Source of the DNA: Prevotella sp.
GTDB taxonomy: Bacteria; Bacteroidota; Bacteroidia; Bacteroidales; Bacteroidaceae
Direction: 5' to 3'
Length of the DNA: 64,000 bases
Assembly: GCA_017478025.1 (NCBI GenBank)
Contig: JAFVGZ010000028.1
Location: forward strand, 1 to 64,000
Shown: piece after piece, positions 19,305 to 62,163 of the stretch
How positions within the stretch are numbered: the stretch's first letter is position 1
Layout: each line of letters starts with the position of its first letter
Translations under genes and position numbers: made by a program
Notes under the pieces: model-generated
Databases searched by the model: none
Seen by the model: only the letters and a program-made list of their open reading frames with translations
What the model was told of the DNA's origin: nothing

Positions 19305-19484
19305 AGATTTTGTTGGTTTAAAGCCCCCACCATCTCCCCCCAGGGGGGAGCGTTCAACGGAGGAGCATGTTTATAAAATAGTTATTATGTTATTTTTCTT
19401 CGTCTGTACCCGCAGATTCACCCCATTGCGACTAAGCCTCACCTGCCTACGCCCCGTGTTGCTGCTCGCTAATGGTAATCATAA

Positions 19485-19552
19485 CTTGTTAATTCGTTAA
19501 TTTGTTAATTCGTTAATTTGTTAACTTGTTAATTCGTTAATTTGTTAATTTG
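19485..19552. repeat. 8-bp tandem repeat TTAATTCG/TTAATTTG
   Basis: About eight units alternate TTAATTCG and TTAATTTG. The gluQ stop codon (19537-19539) lies inside the array, so the last residues of that protein are repeat-encoded. The same 8-mer recurs at 60681-60717, ending at the glycosyltransferase start. Confidence 0.85.
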
Positions 19553-20619
19553 ACCACGATGTCCTCCTGTGGCACCAGGCCCCATGAGAACAGCGGCAGC
19601 AGTTGCTGCGGTGTCATCGGTGTCGGCTTAGGCTGCAGCCCCGCAAGATGTCCGAGATAGCCTATTATCTCTTGCGCGCGATACTTATATCTTAGTACGC
19701 TCATGTCCAGGCTCTTGTCGCGTTTCGACAGCCGTTGCCCTGCTTCGTTTATCAGCAGGGGGAAGTGGAAATACCTCGGTGCCGGCAGGTCCAGCAGCTT
19801 CGCCAGGAAAGTCTGCTGCGGTGCCGACAGCAATAGGTCCCTGCCTCTCACCACCTCTGTCACGCCTGTCAGCGCATCATCCACCACCACTGCCAGCTGA
19901 TAGGCGTATGCCCCGTCCTTGCGTCTCACCACGAAGTCGCCCACCTGCTCATAGAGGTCCACCGTCAGAGGTCCGTAGTGCCCGTCGGTGATGCTCACCT
20001 TTTTGTGAGGCACCTCGACGCGCAAAGCCCCAGGGCCGGCAGCTCCGGTTTCTCCGGAGTTTCCAATTTCTCCGGAGTTTCCAGTTTCTCCGGAGTTTCC
20101 AGTTTCTCCGGATATTCCAGGGTTTCCGGCAGTTCCGGATAATCTGGTTTTCCCGGGGTAGTTCTCCCTCCCCTTGGGGAGGGCTGGGGTGGAGCTTTCC
20201 CCTTCTGGGAGGGCTGGGGTGGGGCTGGTGGGGCTGGTGGAGCTGGTGGGACTTTCCCTATGTACCACCACGCGTCCGTCGCTTTCGTGTGGAGCCATCG
20301 TAGATAGCAGGTCTGCCCTCGTTCGGTGGCATTCATATATCACTCCCTGCTTGCGCAGCTGTTCCAGATATGCGCTGTATATGTCCGTGCGATTGCTCTG
20401 ATATATCGGTGTGCCATCCCAGTCGAGCCCCAACCACCTCAGGTCATCCATAAGCAACTCGCCATACTCCCTGCGGCAGCGCTGGGGATCCAGGTCCTCT
20501 ATGCGCAGCAACCAGCGTCCGCCGTTGCTCTTGGCTGATAGCCATGACAGCAGCGCGCCAAAGATGTTGCCTAAATGCATCCTGCCCGTAGGCGACGGGG
20601 CAAATCGTCCGATAGTCAT
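19537..20619 (-). CDS. gluQ: Glutamyl-Q tRNA(Asp) synthetase with in-frame repeat insertion
   Basis: GluQRS is a truncated glutamyl-tRNA synthetase paralogue that glutamylates queuosine in tRNA(Asp). The Rossmann catalytic core is clear: APSPTGRMHLGN (residues 8-18, HIGH-type) and RLSKRDKS (296-303, KMSKS-type). The protein is 360 residues, longer than the usual 290-310, because residues about 123-196 are low-complexity: Ser-Thr-Pro runs, then TPALPEGESSTPALPKGREN, then collagen-like GETGNSGETGNSGEIGNSG. This stretch is encoded by the composite repeat at 20041-20232. It sits just after Cys97 (YECHRTR), in the zinc-binding region of homologues, where a second Cys is not seen. The start overlaps the cdd stop by 4 nt (ATGA), so the two are coupled. 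Confidence 0.88.
   Translation of the reverse strand: MTIGRFAPSPTGRMHLGNIFGALLSWLSAKSNGGRWLLRIEDLDPQRCRREYGELLMDDLRWLGLDWDGTPIYQSNRTDIYSAYLEQLRKQGVIYECHRTRADLLSTMAPHESDGRVVVHRESPTSSTSPTSPTPALPEGESSTPALPKGRENYPGKTRLSGTAGNPGISGETGNSGETGNSGEIGNSGETGAAGPGALRVEVPHKKVSITDGHYGPLTVDLYEQVGDFVVRRKDGAYAYQLAVVVDDALTGVTEVVRGRDLLLSAPQQTFLAKLLDLPAPRYFHFPLLINEAGQRLSKRDKSLDMSVLRYKYRAQEIIGYLGHLAGLQPKPTPMTPQQLLPLFSWGLVPQEDIVVKLTN
20041..20232. repeat. Composite repeat inside gluQ
   Basis: Positions 20041-20156 are an array of TCCGG-centred units with 9- and 18-bp periods. Positions 20162-20221 carry two CCCTCCCC/GGGAGGG-type segments ending GGGCTGGGGTGGGG. The same two parts in the same order and orientation fill the gene gaps at 43477-43868, 45087-45252 and 46059-46225. 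Here they are translated on the minus strand without breaking the frame. Confidence 0.88.
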
Positions 20620-21074
20620 AATCTAAATCCCTCAGGCAGCAGTTCTTGCAGCTGCCACTGCTTCATCTCCTTGATATCACCCTCCTCATCGGTGCTGGCG
20701 CACAGTATCCGAAAGTCCGGTACGCAGAACTCTGCCATCACCTGTCTGCACACTCCGCAGGGCGTACACAGGTCTGACCCCTGTCGCTCTGCCGGGGCTC
20801 CCACGATGGCGATAGCCTTGAAATACTTCCTCCAGTCGTGCTCCGCGCCAGTGCCTTGCCTCAGGTCGCCGTCGCTGATAGCCTTCACAAAGGCTGTGCG
20901 CTCAGCGCATATCGACGGCCCGAACGCCGCATTCTCCACATTGCAGCCGGTATATACCCTTCCGTCTGCGCATAGCAACGCCGCCCCCACGCGAAAGCGG
21001 GAGTAAGGGGCGTACGACAACTGTCGGGCTGCCAATGCGCGCCGCACCAATGCGTCATCATCCAATATCATCAT
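20616..21074 (-). CDS. cdd: Cytidine deaminase
   Basis: The enzyme hydrolyses cytidine and deoxycytidine to uridine forms in pyrimidine salvage. The 152 residues are the homotetrameric zinc type. Ligands Cys56 (SICAERT), Cys106 and Cys109 (TPCGVCRQV) and catalytic Glu58 are present, as is the substrate loop NVENAAFG (45-52). The start could equally be the second Met. It is first in a two-gene unit with gluQ. Confidence 0.95.
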   Translation of the reverse strand: MMILDDDALVRRALAARQLSYAPYSRFRVGAALLCADGRVYTGCNVENAAFGPSICAERTAFVKAISDGDLRQGTGAEHDWRKYFKAIAIVGAPAERQGSDLCTPCGVCRQVMAEFCVPDFRILCASTDEEGDIKEMKQWQLQELLPEGFRL

Positions 21075-40740: not shown

Positions 40741-40760
40741 AACATTTTGCATTTTTTTTA

Positions 40761-40879
40761 GTGAAGAGTGAAGAGTGAAGAGTGAAGAATCGAGAGTGAA
40801 GAGTGAAGAATCGAGAGTGAAGAGTGAAGAATGAAGAGTGAAGAATGAAGAGTGAAGAGTGAAGAATGAAGAATCATGA
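40761..40879. repeat. 7-bp tandem repeat (GTGAAGA)n, 17 units
   Basis: Seventeen heptamers in exact register: GTGAAGA with variants ATCGAGA and ATGAAGA. It lies between the lptF-like stop and the aminotransferase promoter. Arrays of this sort are prone to copy-number change. Short copies recur at 47306-47326. Confidence 0.92.
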
Positions 40880-43476: not shown

Positions 43477-43868
43477 CCGGGGGGCGGGTTATCCGGAGGG
43501 TCTGGTCTTTCCGGGTTTTCCGGTTTTCCCGGATATTCCGGATAATCCGGATAATCCGGATATTCCGGTTTTCCCGGTTTAGTTCTCCCTCCCCTTGAGG
43601 GAGGGCTGGGGTGGGGCTTCCGTTTTCCTCGGGGCTTCCGGTGGTTTAGTTATCCCTCCCCTTGGGGGAGGGCTGGGGTGGGGCTTCCGTTTTCCTCGGG
43701 GCTTCCGGTGGTTTAGTTCTCCCTCCCCTTGGGGGAGGGCTGGGGTGGGGCTTCCGTTTTCCTCGGGGGCTTCCAGTAGTTTAGTTCTCCCTCCCCTTGG
43801 GGAGGGCTGGGGTGGGGCTTCGGGGTGGGGCTTCTCCCTCCCCTTGGGGGAGGGTCGGGGAGAGGTTT
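43477..43868. repeat. Composite repeat downstream of the AICAR transformylase gene
   Basis: A TCCGG array (43477-43578) is followed by four tandem copies of a 67-68-bp unit; CCCTCCCC starts at 43587, 43654, 43721 and 43789. A fifth, shorter copy starts at 43836. Each holds CCCTCCCC-TT-GGGGGAGGG, a hairpin, then GCTGGGGTGGGGC. It ends at the stop codon of the gene on its right. No gene is seen in the 409-base gap. Confidence 0.92.
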
Positions 43869-45050
43869 TTAATGGTGGAACAGTCTCACTCCGGTGAAGG
43901 CCATTGTGATGCCGTACTTGTCGCAGGTGTCTATGACATTGTCGTCTCTCACGGAGCCGCCGGCCTGTGCTATATACTCCACGCCGCTCTTGTGCGCGCG
44001 TTCTATATTATCTCCGAATGGGAAGAAGGCATCCGATCCGAGTGCCACCTTCGTGTTCTGTGCTATCCACGCCTTCTTCTCCTCGCGTGTCAGGGGTTCG
44101 GGCTTCTCGGTGAAGAACTGCTGCCATGTGCCTTCGGCCAGCACGTCCTCATAGTCGTCGCTGATATAAACGTCGATAGTGTTGTCGCGGTCAGCGCGGC
44201 GTATGCTGTCCTTGAATGGCAGCGCCATCACCTTCGGACACTGTCTCAGCCACCAGATGTCGGCCTTGTTGCCTGCCAGTCGTGTGCAGTGTATGCGGCT
44301 CTGCTGTCCTGCACCGATGCCGATGGCCTGTCCGTCCTTCACATAGCACACGCTGTTGCTCTGGGTATATTTCAGTGTGATGAGGGCTATCATCAGGTCG
44401 CGCTTCGCCTCGTCGGTGAACGTCTTGTTCTTCGTCGGGATATTCTCAAAGAGTGCCGGGTCATTGAGGCGCACCTCGTTGCGGCCCTGCTCAAAGGTGA
44501 TGCCGAAGCACTGTTTCGTCTCCACCGGTGCGGGGCGATATGCGGGGTCTATCTTTATCACGTTGTATGTTCCCTTCCTCTTCTCACGGAGTATCTGGAG
44601 CGCCTCGTCGCTGTATGACGGAGCTATCACGCCGTCGCTCACCTCACGCTTTATCAGCGTCGCCGTAGCTGCGTCACACTCGTCAGAAAGCGCGATGAAA
44701 TCGCCATAACTTGACATTCTGTCGGCACCGCGGGCACGTGCATAAGCACATGCTATAGGTGTCAGCGGCAGCTTCACATCGTCAACGAAATAGATCTTCT
44801 TCAGCGTGTCGCTCAGTGGCAGTCCCACAGCCGCTCCGGCAGGACTCACATGCTTGAAGCTGGCGGCAGCGGGCAGTCCCGTCGCCTCCTTCAGCTCCTT
44901 CACCAGTTGCCAGGAGTTCAGGGCGTCGAGGAAGTTGATATATCCCGGACGGCCGTTAAGCACTTCGAGGGGCAGCTCGCCCTCGGTGATGTAAATACGT
45001 GATGGCTTCTGATTAGGGTTACAGCCATACTTCAGTTGTAGTTCCTTCAT
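43869..45050 (-). CDS. Stand-alone AICAR transformylase
   Basis: Phosphoribosylaminoimidazolecarboxamide formyltransferase, the penultimate step of IMP synthesis. The 393 residues correspond to the AICARFT half of PurH only; the IMP cyclohydrolase (MGS-like) domain is missing. The family's catalytic Lys-His is K66-H67 in SFKHVSPAG. RLAGNKADIWWLRQCPKV and SDAFFPFGDNIERAH match the substrate- and folate-binding regions. A separate cyclohydrolase or full PurH must exist elsewhere. Composite repeats lie on both sides. Confidence 0.9.
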   Translation of the reverse strand: MKELQLKYGCNPNQKPSRIYITEGELPLEVLNGRPGYINFLDALNSWQLVKELKEATGLPAAASFKHVSPAGAAVGLPLSDTLKKIYFVDDVKLPLTPIACAYARARGADRMSSYGDFIALSDECDAATATLIKREVSDGVIAPSYSDEALQILREKRKGTYNVIKIDPAYRPAPVETKQCFGITFEQGRNEVRLNDPALFENIPTKNKTFTDEAKRDLMIALITLKYTQSNSVCYVKDGQAIGIGAGQQSRIHCTRLAGNKADIWWLRQCPKVMALPFKDSIRRADRDNTIDVYISDDYEDVLAEGTWQQFFTEKPEPLTREEKKAWIAQNTKVALGSDAFFPFGDNIERAHKSGVEYIAQAGGSVRDDNVIDTCDKYGITMAFTGVRLFHH

Positions 45051-45086: not shown

Positions 45087-45252
45087 AAGTTCCGGGTTAT
45101 CCGGGTTATCCGGGTTATCCGGGTTATCCGGTCTTTCCCGGCTTTCCCGGCTTTTCCGGTTTTTCCGGATATTCCGGAGATTCCGGATTATCCGGATATT
45201 CCGGTTTTCCCGGGGGTTAGCTCTCCCTCCCCCTGGGGGAGGGTTGGGGAGA
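45087..45252. repeat. Composite repeat between four-helix-bundle and AICAR transformylase genes
   Basis: The array at 45087-45215 begins with 9-bp units TCCGGGTTA in perfect tandem (45091-45127), then diverges to TTCCGGAGA and TATTCCGG types. The hairpin CCCTCCCC/GGGGGAGGG follows at 45224-45243. The hairpin half encodes the last residues of the gene on its right. Confidence 0.92.
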
Positions 45253-46029
45253 GGTATCCTTTATTCTTTCTTCTAACTCTTTTATCATTGCCTCTTGGCG
45301 GGATGTTGTTGCTTTCAACTCGTTGATTGTTGCTTCTTGTTGGCTGATTGTTGTTTTCAACTCGTTGATTGTTGCTTCTTGTTGGCTGATTGTTGCTTTC
45401 AGTTCGTTGATGGTGGCTTCTTGTCCGTTGATGATTTCTTTCTGTGTCTGCCGCTGTTCCAGTCTGGCGGCGGTCATGCGTTCTCTGATGCCGCCTTCTG
45501 TGGTAAACTCTCTGTCTCTCTGCTCTATGTATTTTGTCAATGCCGCATCTACTTGATGGCAGAGGCAGATGGCCATGTTTGCCAATTCTTCGTCATCGAG
45601 CTTCGGCAGCAGGTCGCGGTAGTCCTCGTATTTGCTGTGTTCCTTGCAGAAGGTGTGCAGCCGGTCGAAGCGTTCGTTGTTGCCAAACCACTCATGCTTC
45701 CCACACCGTTTGAGGTAGTCCTGGTAGTCTTCTTGCAGTTCTCTGTTGCTGCCGCGCGCCACTCCCAGCAGCTTCAGTTCCGACTCCATTGATGTCTGTC
45801 CGTCGCTGCATCCTTCGGCGATGTTCTGTTTGGCGCTGCGTGCCGCTTGCACCATCTGGTCCACGGTTCTGTCGCCGTGTGACGGCAGGTAACGCTGGCA
45901 GAAGAGCCGCGTCAGCTGATAGAGAACGTCGCTGCGCTGATAGAATCGCAGGGCGGTATATACCACTGGCTTGCGCAAGACGCTCGCCGTGCCGTCGGCG
46001 TAGTGTCGGATGTTGGGAGGGACAGGCAT
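45217..46029 (-). CDS. Four-helix-bundle protein with repeat-derived tail
   Basis: A 270-residue protein. Residues 20-165 fit the four-helix-bundle family (S23-type; [19 protein letters not shown] is its hallmark segment), with the suffix domain. Residues 175-258 are a coiled coil of near-identical repeats ([14 protein letters not shown], four copies of about 14 residues). The last residues [12 protein letters not shown] are encoded by the CCCTCCCC hairpin repeat, which also supplies the stop. Related bundle proteins bind nucleic acid, and one group (Avd) serves diversity-generating retroelements, but no reverse transcriptase is present here. The true function is unknown. Confidence 0.82.
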
Positions 46030-46058: not shown

Positions 46059-46225
46059 GTTTCCCGGATATTCCGGGTTTTCCGGGTTTTCCGGAGATTC
46101 CGGAGATTCCGGAGATTCCGGATAATCCGGTTTTCCCGGGGTTTAGCTCTCCCTCCCCTTGGGGAGGGGCGGGGTGGGGCTTCGGGTTTAGCTCTCCCTC
46201 CCCTTGGGGGAGGGTCGGGGAGAGG
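46059..46225. repeat. Composite repeat before the four-helix-bundle gene
   Basis: A TCCGG array (46059-46140, with 9-bp units such as GGAGATTCC) is followed by two CCCTCCCC hairpins (from 46151 and 46197). It ends at the stop of the ribonucleotide-reductase-tail-like gene. Confidence 0.9.
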
Positions 46226-46687
46226 TTACTCGCAATACTTCTTTAGCGCTCTCACCACTCCGTTGGTCCAGGTGTCTATGCCGTGGTCCATCTCGAGCGA
46301 TGAGACGAGTTTTATCACGTTCTCTATCGGCATGCCGTATCTCAGCACGCCGCTGATGAGCTTCGCATAGTTCCAGTATATGGGGTTGAACTTCTCGTTC
46401 AGGCCCTCCACCGTCGTCTTATATCCGCGGCGGTTCTCAAACTGGAAGTCATATCTCTTCGTGCCGTCGCTGTTGACGTGCTTGATGATCTTGCCGTTCA
46501 TCACGTTCTTCGGCAGTATGATGCCGTCGTCGTCGTCCTGCAGACCGGTGAAGATCTCATACGGCTTGCCGTTCATCAGTCCCACCAGAGCTACCCATTT
46601 CTCCTTTGCGTTCTGAAAACGCACCACGTCGCACTCCAATACCTCAGGCCTCACATGCTGCTCAAGGTTGTTCTGTTCTTCTGCCAT
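46226..46687 (-). CDS. Stand-alone homologue of the class II ribonucleotide reductase C-terminal domain
   Basis: From the ATG at 46687 ([20 protein letters not shown]) the protein has 153 residues. [20 protein letters not shown] and [13 protein letters not shown] resemble the tail of adenosylcobalamin-dependent ribonucleotide reductases (TSCPD-like region), but no catalytic barrel is attached. It may be a regulatory or accessory subunit made separately (inference). The frame is open upstream to 46738, but the promoter box at 46734-46727 lies inside that stretch, so a start at 46708 or 46687 is required. Confidence 0.7.
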
Positions 46688-60717: not shown

Positions 60718-62163
60718 GTGAGGCTTCTCATTCTCAGTACATACGAACATACTGGTGGGGCGGCGATAGCTGCGTCACGGTTGCTGCATGCCCTGCAGGG
60801 GCAGGGTGTGGAGGCTACGATGTTATGCCGGCGTAACATCCGTGTGGGATGGCTGCGTTGCCTGTGTCCGCCGTTGGCACGTGCGCTGGAGAAACAATCG
60901 TGGACAAGCATCGCGGAACGTGCGGTGATATGGGCCAGCAACGGTTTTACGAAGAAAGACCTGTGGGCTACGGACATCGCGCTCTTCGGTCAGGACATCA
61001 CCACGACACGCGAATACCGTGAGGCCGATGCGGTGCTGATACATTGGGTGAACCAAGGGTTCCTGTCACTCAGCACCATCGAGAAGATAGCCCGTAGCGG
61101 CAAACGCGTCGTATGGACCATGCATGATGAGTGGCCATTAGAAGGCGTGGAACACTATACGAGCCCCACATCGCCCGTTGCTGCCACATCGTCAGCTACT
61201 CCCACTTCCCCCACATCGAGCATTGCCACCATTCACCCCACTAACCCCATCAACAACCTCTTAACCCAATGGGTCTTGCGCCGTAAAGCGGAGATATATC
61301 GCAGCGGTAGAATCTCGTTTGTCACTTGCAGCGAGTGGCTCAAGAACATCTCTGAGAAGAAAACACTTGCCGAAGGTCTGCGTATCGTCAGCATCCCCAA
61401 TCCCATAGATTCCCGCCTCTTTGCGCCGTTGACAGAAGGGCAGCGCAAAGAAGCCGCCAAAACACTGGGACTGCCGCAGGGCAAGAAGCTGGTGCTCTTC
61501 GTAGCACAAAAGGTAGATGATGAGCGCAAAGGCATAAGATACCTTGATGAGGCGGTGAAGATATTGACGGGGAACCAGGGTAATCCGGAGAATCCGGCAG
61601 TTCCGGATAGTCCGGATTATCCGGATAAACCGGAAAATCCGAAGATTTCGGAAATTCCGGGAGATTTCGCTATTATCGCGCCTGGGCGAGACATACCATA
61701 TATAACTAATGTAGAGGACATGGCGCGGCTCTATGCCTGCGTCGATGTCTTTGTGACGCCGTCCCTCTCAGACAATCTGCCCAACACTATCATGGAGGCT
61801 ATGTCCTGCGGCACACCGTGCGTGGGCTTTGATGTAGGTGGCATACCAGAGATGATAGACCACAAAGAGAACGGATACGTGGCGCGTTACAAGGATGCGC
61901 AGGACTTGGCAGAGGGCATACGCTACGTCATAGCAAAGGAAAATCATGCCCGCCTATCAAGGGCAGCGCGCAACAAAGTGATGCTATGCTACAGTGAGGA
62001 GGCTGTGGCAAGCAAGTATCTGACGGAGATAAACAGAGAAATCGGAGGCGTTGTGCCCGAGAAATACAGAGAAACCAAAGGCTTTATGCCGGAGACAGAC
62101 AGAGGAAAAGGAGGCTTAGGAGAGACTGGAAACAAAGAGAAGTCAGGGAGAAAAGAATGCTGA
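60718..62163 (+). CDS. GT4-type glycosyltransferase with in-frame repeat insertions
   Basis: A 481-residue glycosyltransferase of the GT-B fold, family 4 type. It starts at GTG 60718 (MRLLILSTYEHTGGAAIAAS); the glycine-rich GGAAIAASRLL follows the first strand. The donor-binding region is SDNLPNTIMEAMSCGTPCVG near residue 360. Two low-complexity stretches break the fold: Ser-Thr-Pro runs at about residues 145-178, and nine xPx triplets (NPE NPA VPD SPD YPD KPE) at 289-315, encoded by a 9-bp TCCGG array. The C-terminal 40 residues are charged and may be another addition. It overlaps the next gene by 7 nt, so they form one unit, probably for a surface glycan. Confidence 0.88.
   Translation: MRLLILSTYEHTGGAAIAASRLLHALQGQGVEATMLCRRNIRVGWLRCLCPPLARALEKQSWTSIAERAVIWASNGFTKKDLWATDIALFGQDITTTREYREADAVLIHWVNQGFLSLSTIEKIARSGKRVVWTMHDEWPLEGVEHYTSPTSPVAATSSATPTSPTSSIATIHPTNPINNLLTQWVLRRKAEIYRSGRISFVTCSEWLKNISEKKTLAEGLRIVSIPNPIDSRLFAPLTEGQRKEAAKTLGLPQGKKLVLFVAQKVDDERKGIRYLDEAVKILTGNQGNPENPAVPDSPDYPDKPENPKISEIPGDFAIIAPGRDIPYITNVEDMARLYACVDVFVTPSLSDNLPNTIMEAMSCGTPCVGFDVGGIPEMIDHKENGYVARYKDAQDLAEGIRYVIAKENHARLSRAARNKVMLCYSEEAVASKYLTEINREIGGVVPEKYRETKGFMPETDRGKGGLGETGNKEKSGRKEC
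61582..61662 (+). repeat. Nine 9-bp TCCGG units inside the glycosyltransferase gene
   Basis: Nine consecutive 9-bp units (AATCCGGAG, AATCCGGCA, GTTCCGGAT and so on) run from 61582 to 61662. Each adds exactly three codons, so the reading frame is kept. Confidence 0.92.

Follow-up and report, generated by a model that had tools for sequence, protein, structure and literature searches.

A composite repeat element within the zinc-binding region of a Prevotella glutamyl-Q tRNA(Asp) synthetase gene

How does repetitive DNA that also lies between genes come to be translated within a conserved enzyme, and does the enzyme remain in use? The question is raised by gluQ, encoding the glutamyl-Q tRNA(Asp) synthetase GluQRS (19537..20619, minus strand, 360 residues), in a Prevotella sp. 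genome (GCA_017478025.1). The gene lies in positions 1 to 64,000 of contig JAFVGZ010000028.1, the whole of which was analysed and is here called the window. An original prediction, made from the letters of the window, was that a composite of a repeat array and a hairpin, known from the window's intergenic DNA, sits in frame inside this gene. Our answer, which we consider likely, is that a repeat element made of a hairpin and a 9-bp array entered gluQ in an ancestor of this species and Prevotellaceae bacterium UBA2718, and that the enzyme is still used without its zinc knuckle.

The insert and its intergenic counterparts

The 360-residue open reading frame (ORF) is accepted by the NCBIfam GluQRS model TIGR03838 with 285.6 bits (cut-off 276.7), as is the UBA2718 protein with 288.4 bits. 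As predicted, the motifs HLGN (residues 15-18) and RLSKR (296-300), which we take to be the HIGH-like and KMSKS-like motifs, are intact; in the 56-sequence alignment used for the model, H15, G17, N18 and R296-R300 are invariant and L16 nearly so. Fold and catalytic motifs equal those of E. coli GluQRS (1nzj, 4a91). The two differ in the stretches CxC and YxGxC of the E. coli enzyme, residues that presumably form its zinc site. Compared with 1nzj, C97 is retained opposite chain residue 101, but R99 takes the place of the second Cys (chain residue 103) and the Y-x-G-x-C stretch is gone, VHRE and the insert standing in its place. Three of the four ligand positions are lost, the loop consists of 74 residues of repeat-derived peptide, and TIGR03838 nonetheless accepts the protein; the insert does, then, fall at the zinc-binding region with a single Cys left. 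QueA is encoded in the same genome.

Alignment with relatives lacking it places the inserted segment at 20032..20253 (minus strand; residues 123-196, SPTSSTSP...GETGAAGP), in frame between the flanks VHRE and ALRVEVPH, which are common to UBA2718. The originally estimated length of about 74 residues was right, but the span first given, 20041-20232, was slightly too short, and since the insert replaces about 11 residues, the latter part of the zinc knuckle among them, the net gain is about 63 (134 against 71 residues between equal anchors). On the plus strand, the segment begins with a 9-bp array at 20044..20156, each unit a TCCGG core plus four bases, found by Tandem Repeats Finder (TRF) and by an array scan; translated from the minus strand, it yields a Gly-X-Y peptide. 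Two G+C hairpin units at 20162..20226 (plus) comprise CCCTCCCCTTGGGGAGGG at 20166-20183 and a degenerate second copy, and a short GGTGGGGCT-type 9-bp repeat occupies the far end at 20218..20253 (plus; SPTSSTSPTSPT on the minus strand). TRF reports an 18-bp unit repeated 4.3 times at 20044-20120, a 30-bp unit repeated twice at 20169-20226 and a 9-bp unit at 20218-20250. The hairpin pattern is matched within 20162-20226, against a mean of 0.00 in 100 shuffles, and Pfam sees a collagen-like stretch at residues 155-195, below its cut-off. The predicted order of array then hairpin holds for the plus strand, whereas the mRNA reads hairpin then array. Immediately downstream of gluQ, at 19482-19552, lies a further array with an 8-bp unit, TAATTTGT.

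The predicted kinship with intergenic DNA was assessed by local alignment of 20041-20232 with three composites of the window, all on the plus strand. The first, at 43492..43870, has an array followed by several hairpin units (score 131, z 27); the others, at 45091..45254 and 46063..46226, have an array followed by one hairpin (126, z 35) and by two hairpins (130, z 31), respectively. In each case the alignment runs across array and hairpin in equal order and on the equal strand. Three hundred dinucleotide shuffles per composite gave means of 21.5-23.9 with standard deviations of 3.0-3.9, and alignment on the reverse strand scored only 26-32. The likeness is real and not due to chance.

It might be argued that a hypervariable loop simply grew in place by replication slippage and that the intergenic likeness reflects shared composition. 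Weighing against our reading on this point, long or repetitive loops occur in two GluQRS with an intact zinc motif (loci L107, with GTIGTIDTIGTIKTI, and L117), and two relatives, G001 and G022, have repetitive loops of other kinds in MutS and pullulanase, respectively, where the present genome has the composite. Slippage alone, however, hardly accounts for array and hairpin matching intergenic copies in order and strand at z of 27-35 over shuffles, nor for the recurrence of the composite in unrelated genes at unrelated sites (see below), and we regard it as unlikely.

Relatives and continued use of the enzyme

GluQRS is patchy in the genus, with 60 of 398 genomes above the TIGR03838 cut-off (58 as listed, the remaining two presumably being the present genome and G008, which have split matches and both pass when scored individually). 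These 60 loci, together with one from another family of the same order (G053), were compared: loop lengths were obtained for 54, five without an anchor were seen whole and are ordinary, and two (L125 and L130) were examined separately. The loop is ordinary, and the insert absent, in 55 of the 61, with 70-98 residues between anchors in the 48 of these having a length. In these 55 the zinc motif is complete or almost so: L130 is without the last Cys, and L125 and L127 have His instead of Tyr.

The insert-bearing form is confined to two loci, those of the present genome (loop of 134 residues) and of UBA2718 (G194; 93 residues). Besides the flanks, the two genes have in common the motif ECHRTR, their neighbouring genes and the loss of the zinc site. 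The UBA2718 insert lies at the equal site but has 33 residues against 74, a different sequence, and a hairpin and array of its own. Since site, flanks and zinc-ligand losses are common to both, entry in a shared ancestor is suggested; the insertion would then be older than the divergence of the two species and is probably not recent.

The same comparison bears on whether the insert is an old, selected domain with a function of its own, such as a collagen-like binding tail, an idea to which the original prediction would have turned had all close relatives carried a conserved insert. Its presence in two species and the selection on the gene (below) speak for such a domain. Yet in the one close relative the insert differs in both length and sequence, the remaining loci lack it, and an equal peptide appears in enzymes of unrelated function. 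We therefore give this explanation still less credence than slippage.

A second zinc-less group comprises four loci. That of G008 has a loop of 148 residues, the sole long insert of the group, with a sequence unlike that studied here; those of G205, G395 and G158 (80, 69 and 67 residues) are of ordinary length but altered sequence, two of them resembling, by eye, translated hairpins. In a tree of 59 of the 61 loci (L113 and L132 were excluded, having no ORF by the script's rule), each zinc-less group has 100/100 support and the two are placed apart, although a single group of six is not rejected (approximately unbiased test, p-AU 0.268).

Selection was measured between the two insert-bearing genes over 281 codons outside the insert, as nonsynonymous (dN) and synonymous (dS) substitution rates. 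YN00 gave dN 0.049, dS 0.633 and dN/dS 0.077, and NG86 dN 0.057, dS 0.489 and dN/dS 0.116; the ratio agrees between both sides of the insert, and the neighbouring gene cdd, taken as a control, has 0.127 by YN00. Because both copies are without the zinc site and the ratio is low, it is very probable that the enzyme was under purifying selection in the very form that has the insert and no zinc site, and that GluQRS is still in use, in line with the earlier suggestion that it may still work. Together with the intergenic match, this supports the claim that the element can enter coding sequence and be tolerated. In the predicted structure, the GluQRS body is ordinary and the insert is a loop of low complexity with predicted disorder.

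These figures also leave little room for a gene in decay, with insert and zinc loss as its symptoms. The loss of three of four ligand positions is what such decay might look like, but a dN/dS of 0.077-0.116 at a dS of about 0.5-0.6, the lack of any frameshift or stop and the preservation of the catalytic motifs in both species make it very improbable. An assembly or binning artefact, to which a genome in 43 contigs and 84.7% complete might be prone, is more improbable still, as the reading frame is unbroken and UBA2718, a separate record, agrees in site, flanks and loss of zinc ligands.

The insertion that we favour would have proceeded as follows. A G+C-rich hairpin of the CCCTCCCC-n-GGGGAGGG type with a TCCGG-type 9-bp array would have entered gluQ in the ancestor of the two species, and the alignment shows that it took over the loop bearing the last two zinc ligands. 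The mRNA remains readable through the element, since the hairpin consensus is free of stops in all six frames and the length of the array unit is divisible by three. As 20041-20232 likewise has no stop in any of the three coding-strand frames, the in-frame position is less restrictive than it appears. The product would be an ordinary GluQRS body with a disordered, low-complexity loop, used on without the zinc knuckle if dN/dS is a guide. If both species descend from a single shared insertion, array length and hairpin units would have changed rapidly after entry. In other genes, selection presumably retains only those insertions that fall in tolerant loops.

Copies in other genes and likeness to known systems

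The gluQ case is not an isolated event: in this genome the composite or the array lies in frame in at least eight further genes with a family assignment. A three-unit TCCGG pattern has 100 overlapping matches in the genome, 94 of which lie on contigs C41 and C42 (the latter being that of the window), 15% of the assembly. Given this concentration of array matches, copies may tend to spread to nearby chromosomal sites. Hairpins, unlike arrays, occur on many contigs; intergenic ones are frequent and, by eye in many of 20 stretches, often lie shortly 3' of a stop codon.

On C41 (stretch 159,744-247,223), composites are found in frame in MnmG, MetH (at two places), MutS, a histidine-phosphatase family protein and a cyclomaltodextrinase-type protein. 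A pullulanase there has two composites and one array in frame, and a heptosyltransferase-family protein has the composite twice, reversed and in frame. UvrA on C15, in an ORF cut by the stretch and scoring 681 bits, below the profile cut-off of 729.8, contains, along with other repeats, an in-frame array and a hairpin of this kind. Reversed lone hairpins occur in a helicase C-terminal domain, an ABC-2 permease, an Eco57I-type methylase ORF and one ORF without a family match. Between 190.7 and 195.6 kb the arrays of C41 change strand in a manner resembling a replication signal; a replichore polarity was considered and dropped, because this region shows little GC skew and most copies simply follow the direction of their genes.

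Among these other hosts, absence from relatives was examined for MutS and pullulanase. In MutS the insert spans residues 621-672 and maps to the interval bounded by residues 603 and 608 in the E. coli chain. MutS is matched in seven of ten genomes queried and, judged by match pattern, the insert is in none of them; junction sequences were inspected in six of the seven (L152 excluded). Pullulanase is matched in six genomes, four of which bridge residues 372-420 with 15-18 bases, coverage in G060 being partial. UBA2718 (71% complete) gave no match for either protein.

Several host genes show further repeats. The loop holding the composite in MutS has a short, array-like repetitive stretch in G001 (L147), and the pullulanase site a different repetitive loop in G022 (L161). 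UvrA (L133 2-2800, plus) has more in-frame repeats, including the block TGDVGVLA(R/C)DKK...SSLFTL three times, while MnmG (L178 177-2516, plus) has a second in-frame repeat, EELRVGSEELRVKSEE, resembling the AGTGAAG 7-bp repeat at 40760-40872 of the window. In the pullulanase (L068 8727-11069, minus) the peptide ATVPVGSPTG occurs twice and another hairpin, CCCGTCGGAGAGCCGACGGG, adjoins one array. The cdd gene (window 20616-21074; UBA2718 L170 2245-2823, plus) has a variable inner stretch, and that of UBA2718 terminates in the hairpin peptide SPTSPTSPTPALPKGRET, which is absent from the present cdd; a close variant of this hairpin element sits in the present gluQ. Finally, a glycosyltransferase ORF of the window (60718-62163, plus) contains in frame a TCCGG array without hairpin at 61584..61634 (plus; NPENPAVPDSPDYPDKPENP) and a second stretch rich in Ser, Pro and Thr.

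Rickettsia palindromic elements (RPEs) offer the closest parallel in behaviour. The parts of the reports available to us describe them as palindromes that occupy intergenic DNA and are also inserted, in frame, into many conserved genes unrelated to one another, with one protein tested, Gmk, being active with its insert, with orthologues in related species having inserts at the equal site, and with a build of 105-146 bp stem-loops bearing terminal inverted repeats (PMC2229807, PMC10969869, PMC3767692). Here, too, one palindromic repeat is found both between genes and in frame in several unrelated conserved genes, and related species have same-site inserts. Unlike RPEs, however, as far as those accounts go, it has no single palindrome of 105-146 bp but hairpin cores of 16-20 bp, with 8-bp arms, joined to a 9-bp minisatellite of variable length, and its host is of the Prevotellaceae; the two are set apart by descriptions, not by sequences.

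The available text on GTAG/CGTC repetitive extragenic palindromes (REPs) presents them as small hairpins, mostly just 3' of genes but some in frame, with uvrA and tRNA synthetases among the hosts; CGTC repeats are reported there from Bacteroidetes among other phyla, without a dedicated transposase, the Y1/REP-associated tyrosine transposase (RAYT) link applying to the GTAG type only (PMC3733652). Small size, occasional in-frame position and hosts that include uvrA and a tRNA synthetase gene are thus common to both. In contrast, the tags are found in few cores here and are not a general feature of the hairpins, and a joined minisatellite is not described for those REPs in the text available (PMC3733652). 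Of 59 hairpin cores, nine have CGTC no more than 9 bases from the foot, against 4.8% of random places, and a single one, the gluQ copy, has GTAG there. Because CGTC is thus about three times commoner than background, a tie of a subset of the hairpins to CGTC REPs is possible. Matches to the Y1/RAYT transposase family (PF01797) numbered zero in this 84.7% complete genome, while five of 14 control genomes were positive, and a search for viral contigs returned none. At the 3' end of cdd, compared between UBA2718 and the present genome, no target duplication is clear by eye, the computed alignment being poor; the relatives' GluQ and MutS genes are too distant to give exact empty sites.

In build, the nearer likeness is to BrickBuilt, a miniature inverted-repeat transposable element of Porphyromonas gingivalis that, in the part of its description available, joins a minisatellite with a 23-nt unit to inverted-repeat parts and has several copies, always intergenic (PMC4596501). 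Minisatellite, inverted-repeat parts and multiplicity recur here, but with a 9-bp unit and also inside genes. By analogy, the gluQ element acts like an RPE and in part has the build of BrickBuilt, without the structure of the one or the location of the other. What we judge to be new is the hairpin joined to a minisatellite as a protein-coding repeat, in Prevotellaceae; a literature search, mostly of freely accessible papers, found no paper on in-frame repeats in Prevotella.

Reading frames and occurrence in the genus

Ten forward composites in family-assigned genes (MnmG, MetH twice, MutS, histidine phosphatase, cyclomaltodextrinase, pullulanase twice, GluQRS and UvrA) share one reading frame, giving S-P-x-P-x-x-P or nearly so. 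The chance of this would be about 5 in 100,000 were the copies independent, but they are in fact related. Reversed copies use two frames, and arrays without a hairpin use others, as in PETPEKPE of UvrA. Selection for a mild peptide, or gene-to-gene copying, may explain the preference for one frame among forward composites.

Across the genus the repeat is patchy: four-unit TCCGG arrays occur in 21 of 120 genomes, the present one included, with 61 matches here, 79 in G060, 52 in G129 and few in most others. A broader proposal, which we put forward as tentative and rather doubtful, is that some Prevotellaceae lineages carry composites with stop-free hairpins and multiple-of-three units that spread mainly nearby and continually rewrite loops of core enzymes, the zinc knuckle of GluQRS having been removed by them, with selection on the enzyme maintained, possibly in two lineages. 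If true, a genomic parasite would be reshaping the proteome at a rate measurable between sister species. Most known cases of selfish repeats in frame come from Rickettsia and, as REPs, from scattered species; one Prevotella-family genome has them in the core enzymes MutS, UvrA, MetH, MnmG and GluQRS, with a sister species near enough for selection on, and turnover of, one insert to be measured. The case suggests that repetitive selfish DNA can lengthen working proteins, and it offers a natural experiment on the size of foreign loop that a synthetase tolerates and on its need for a zinc knuckle. It also advises caution in annotation, as collagen-like matches in such proteins would be translated repeats.

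An SGLSGISG array is also seen in frame in G123 (L142 70-1959, plus), where it lies between two ketoacyl-synthase-like parts of a single ORF; two adjacent genes may have fused across the repeat.
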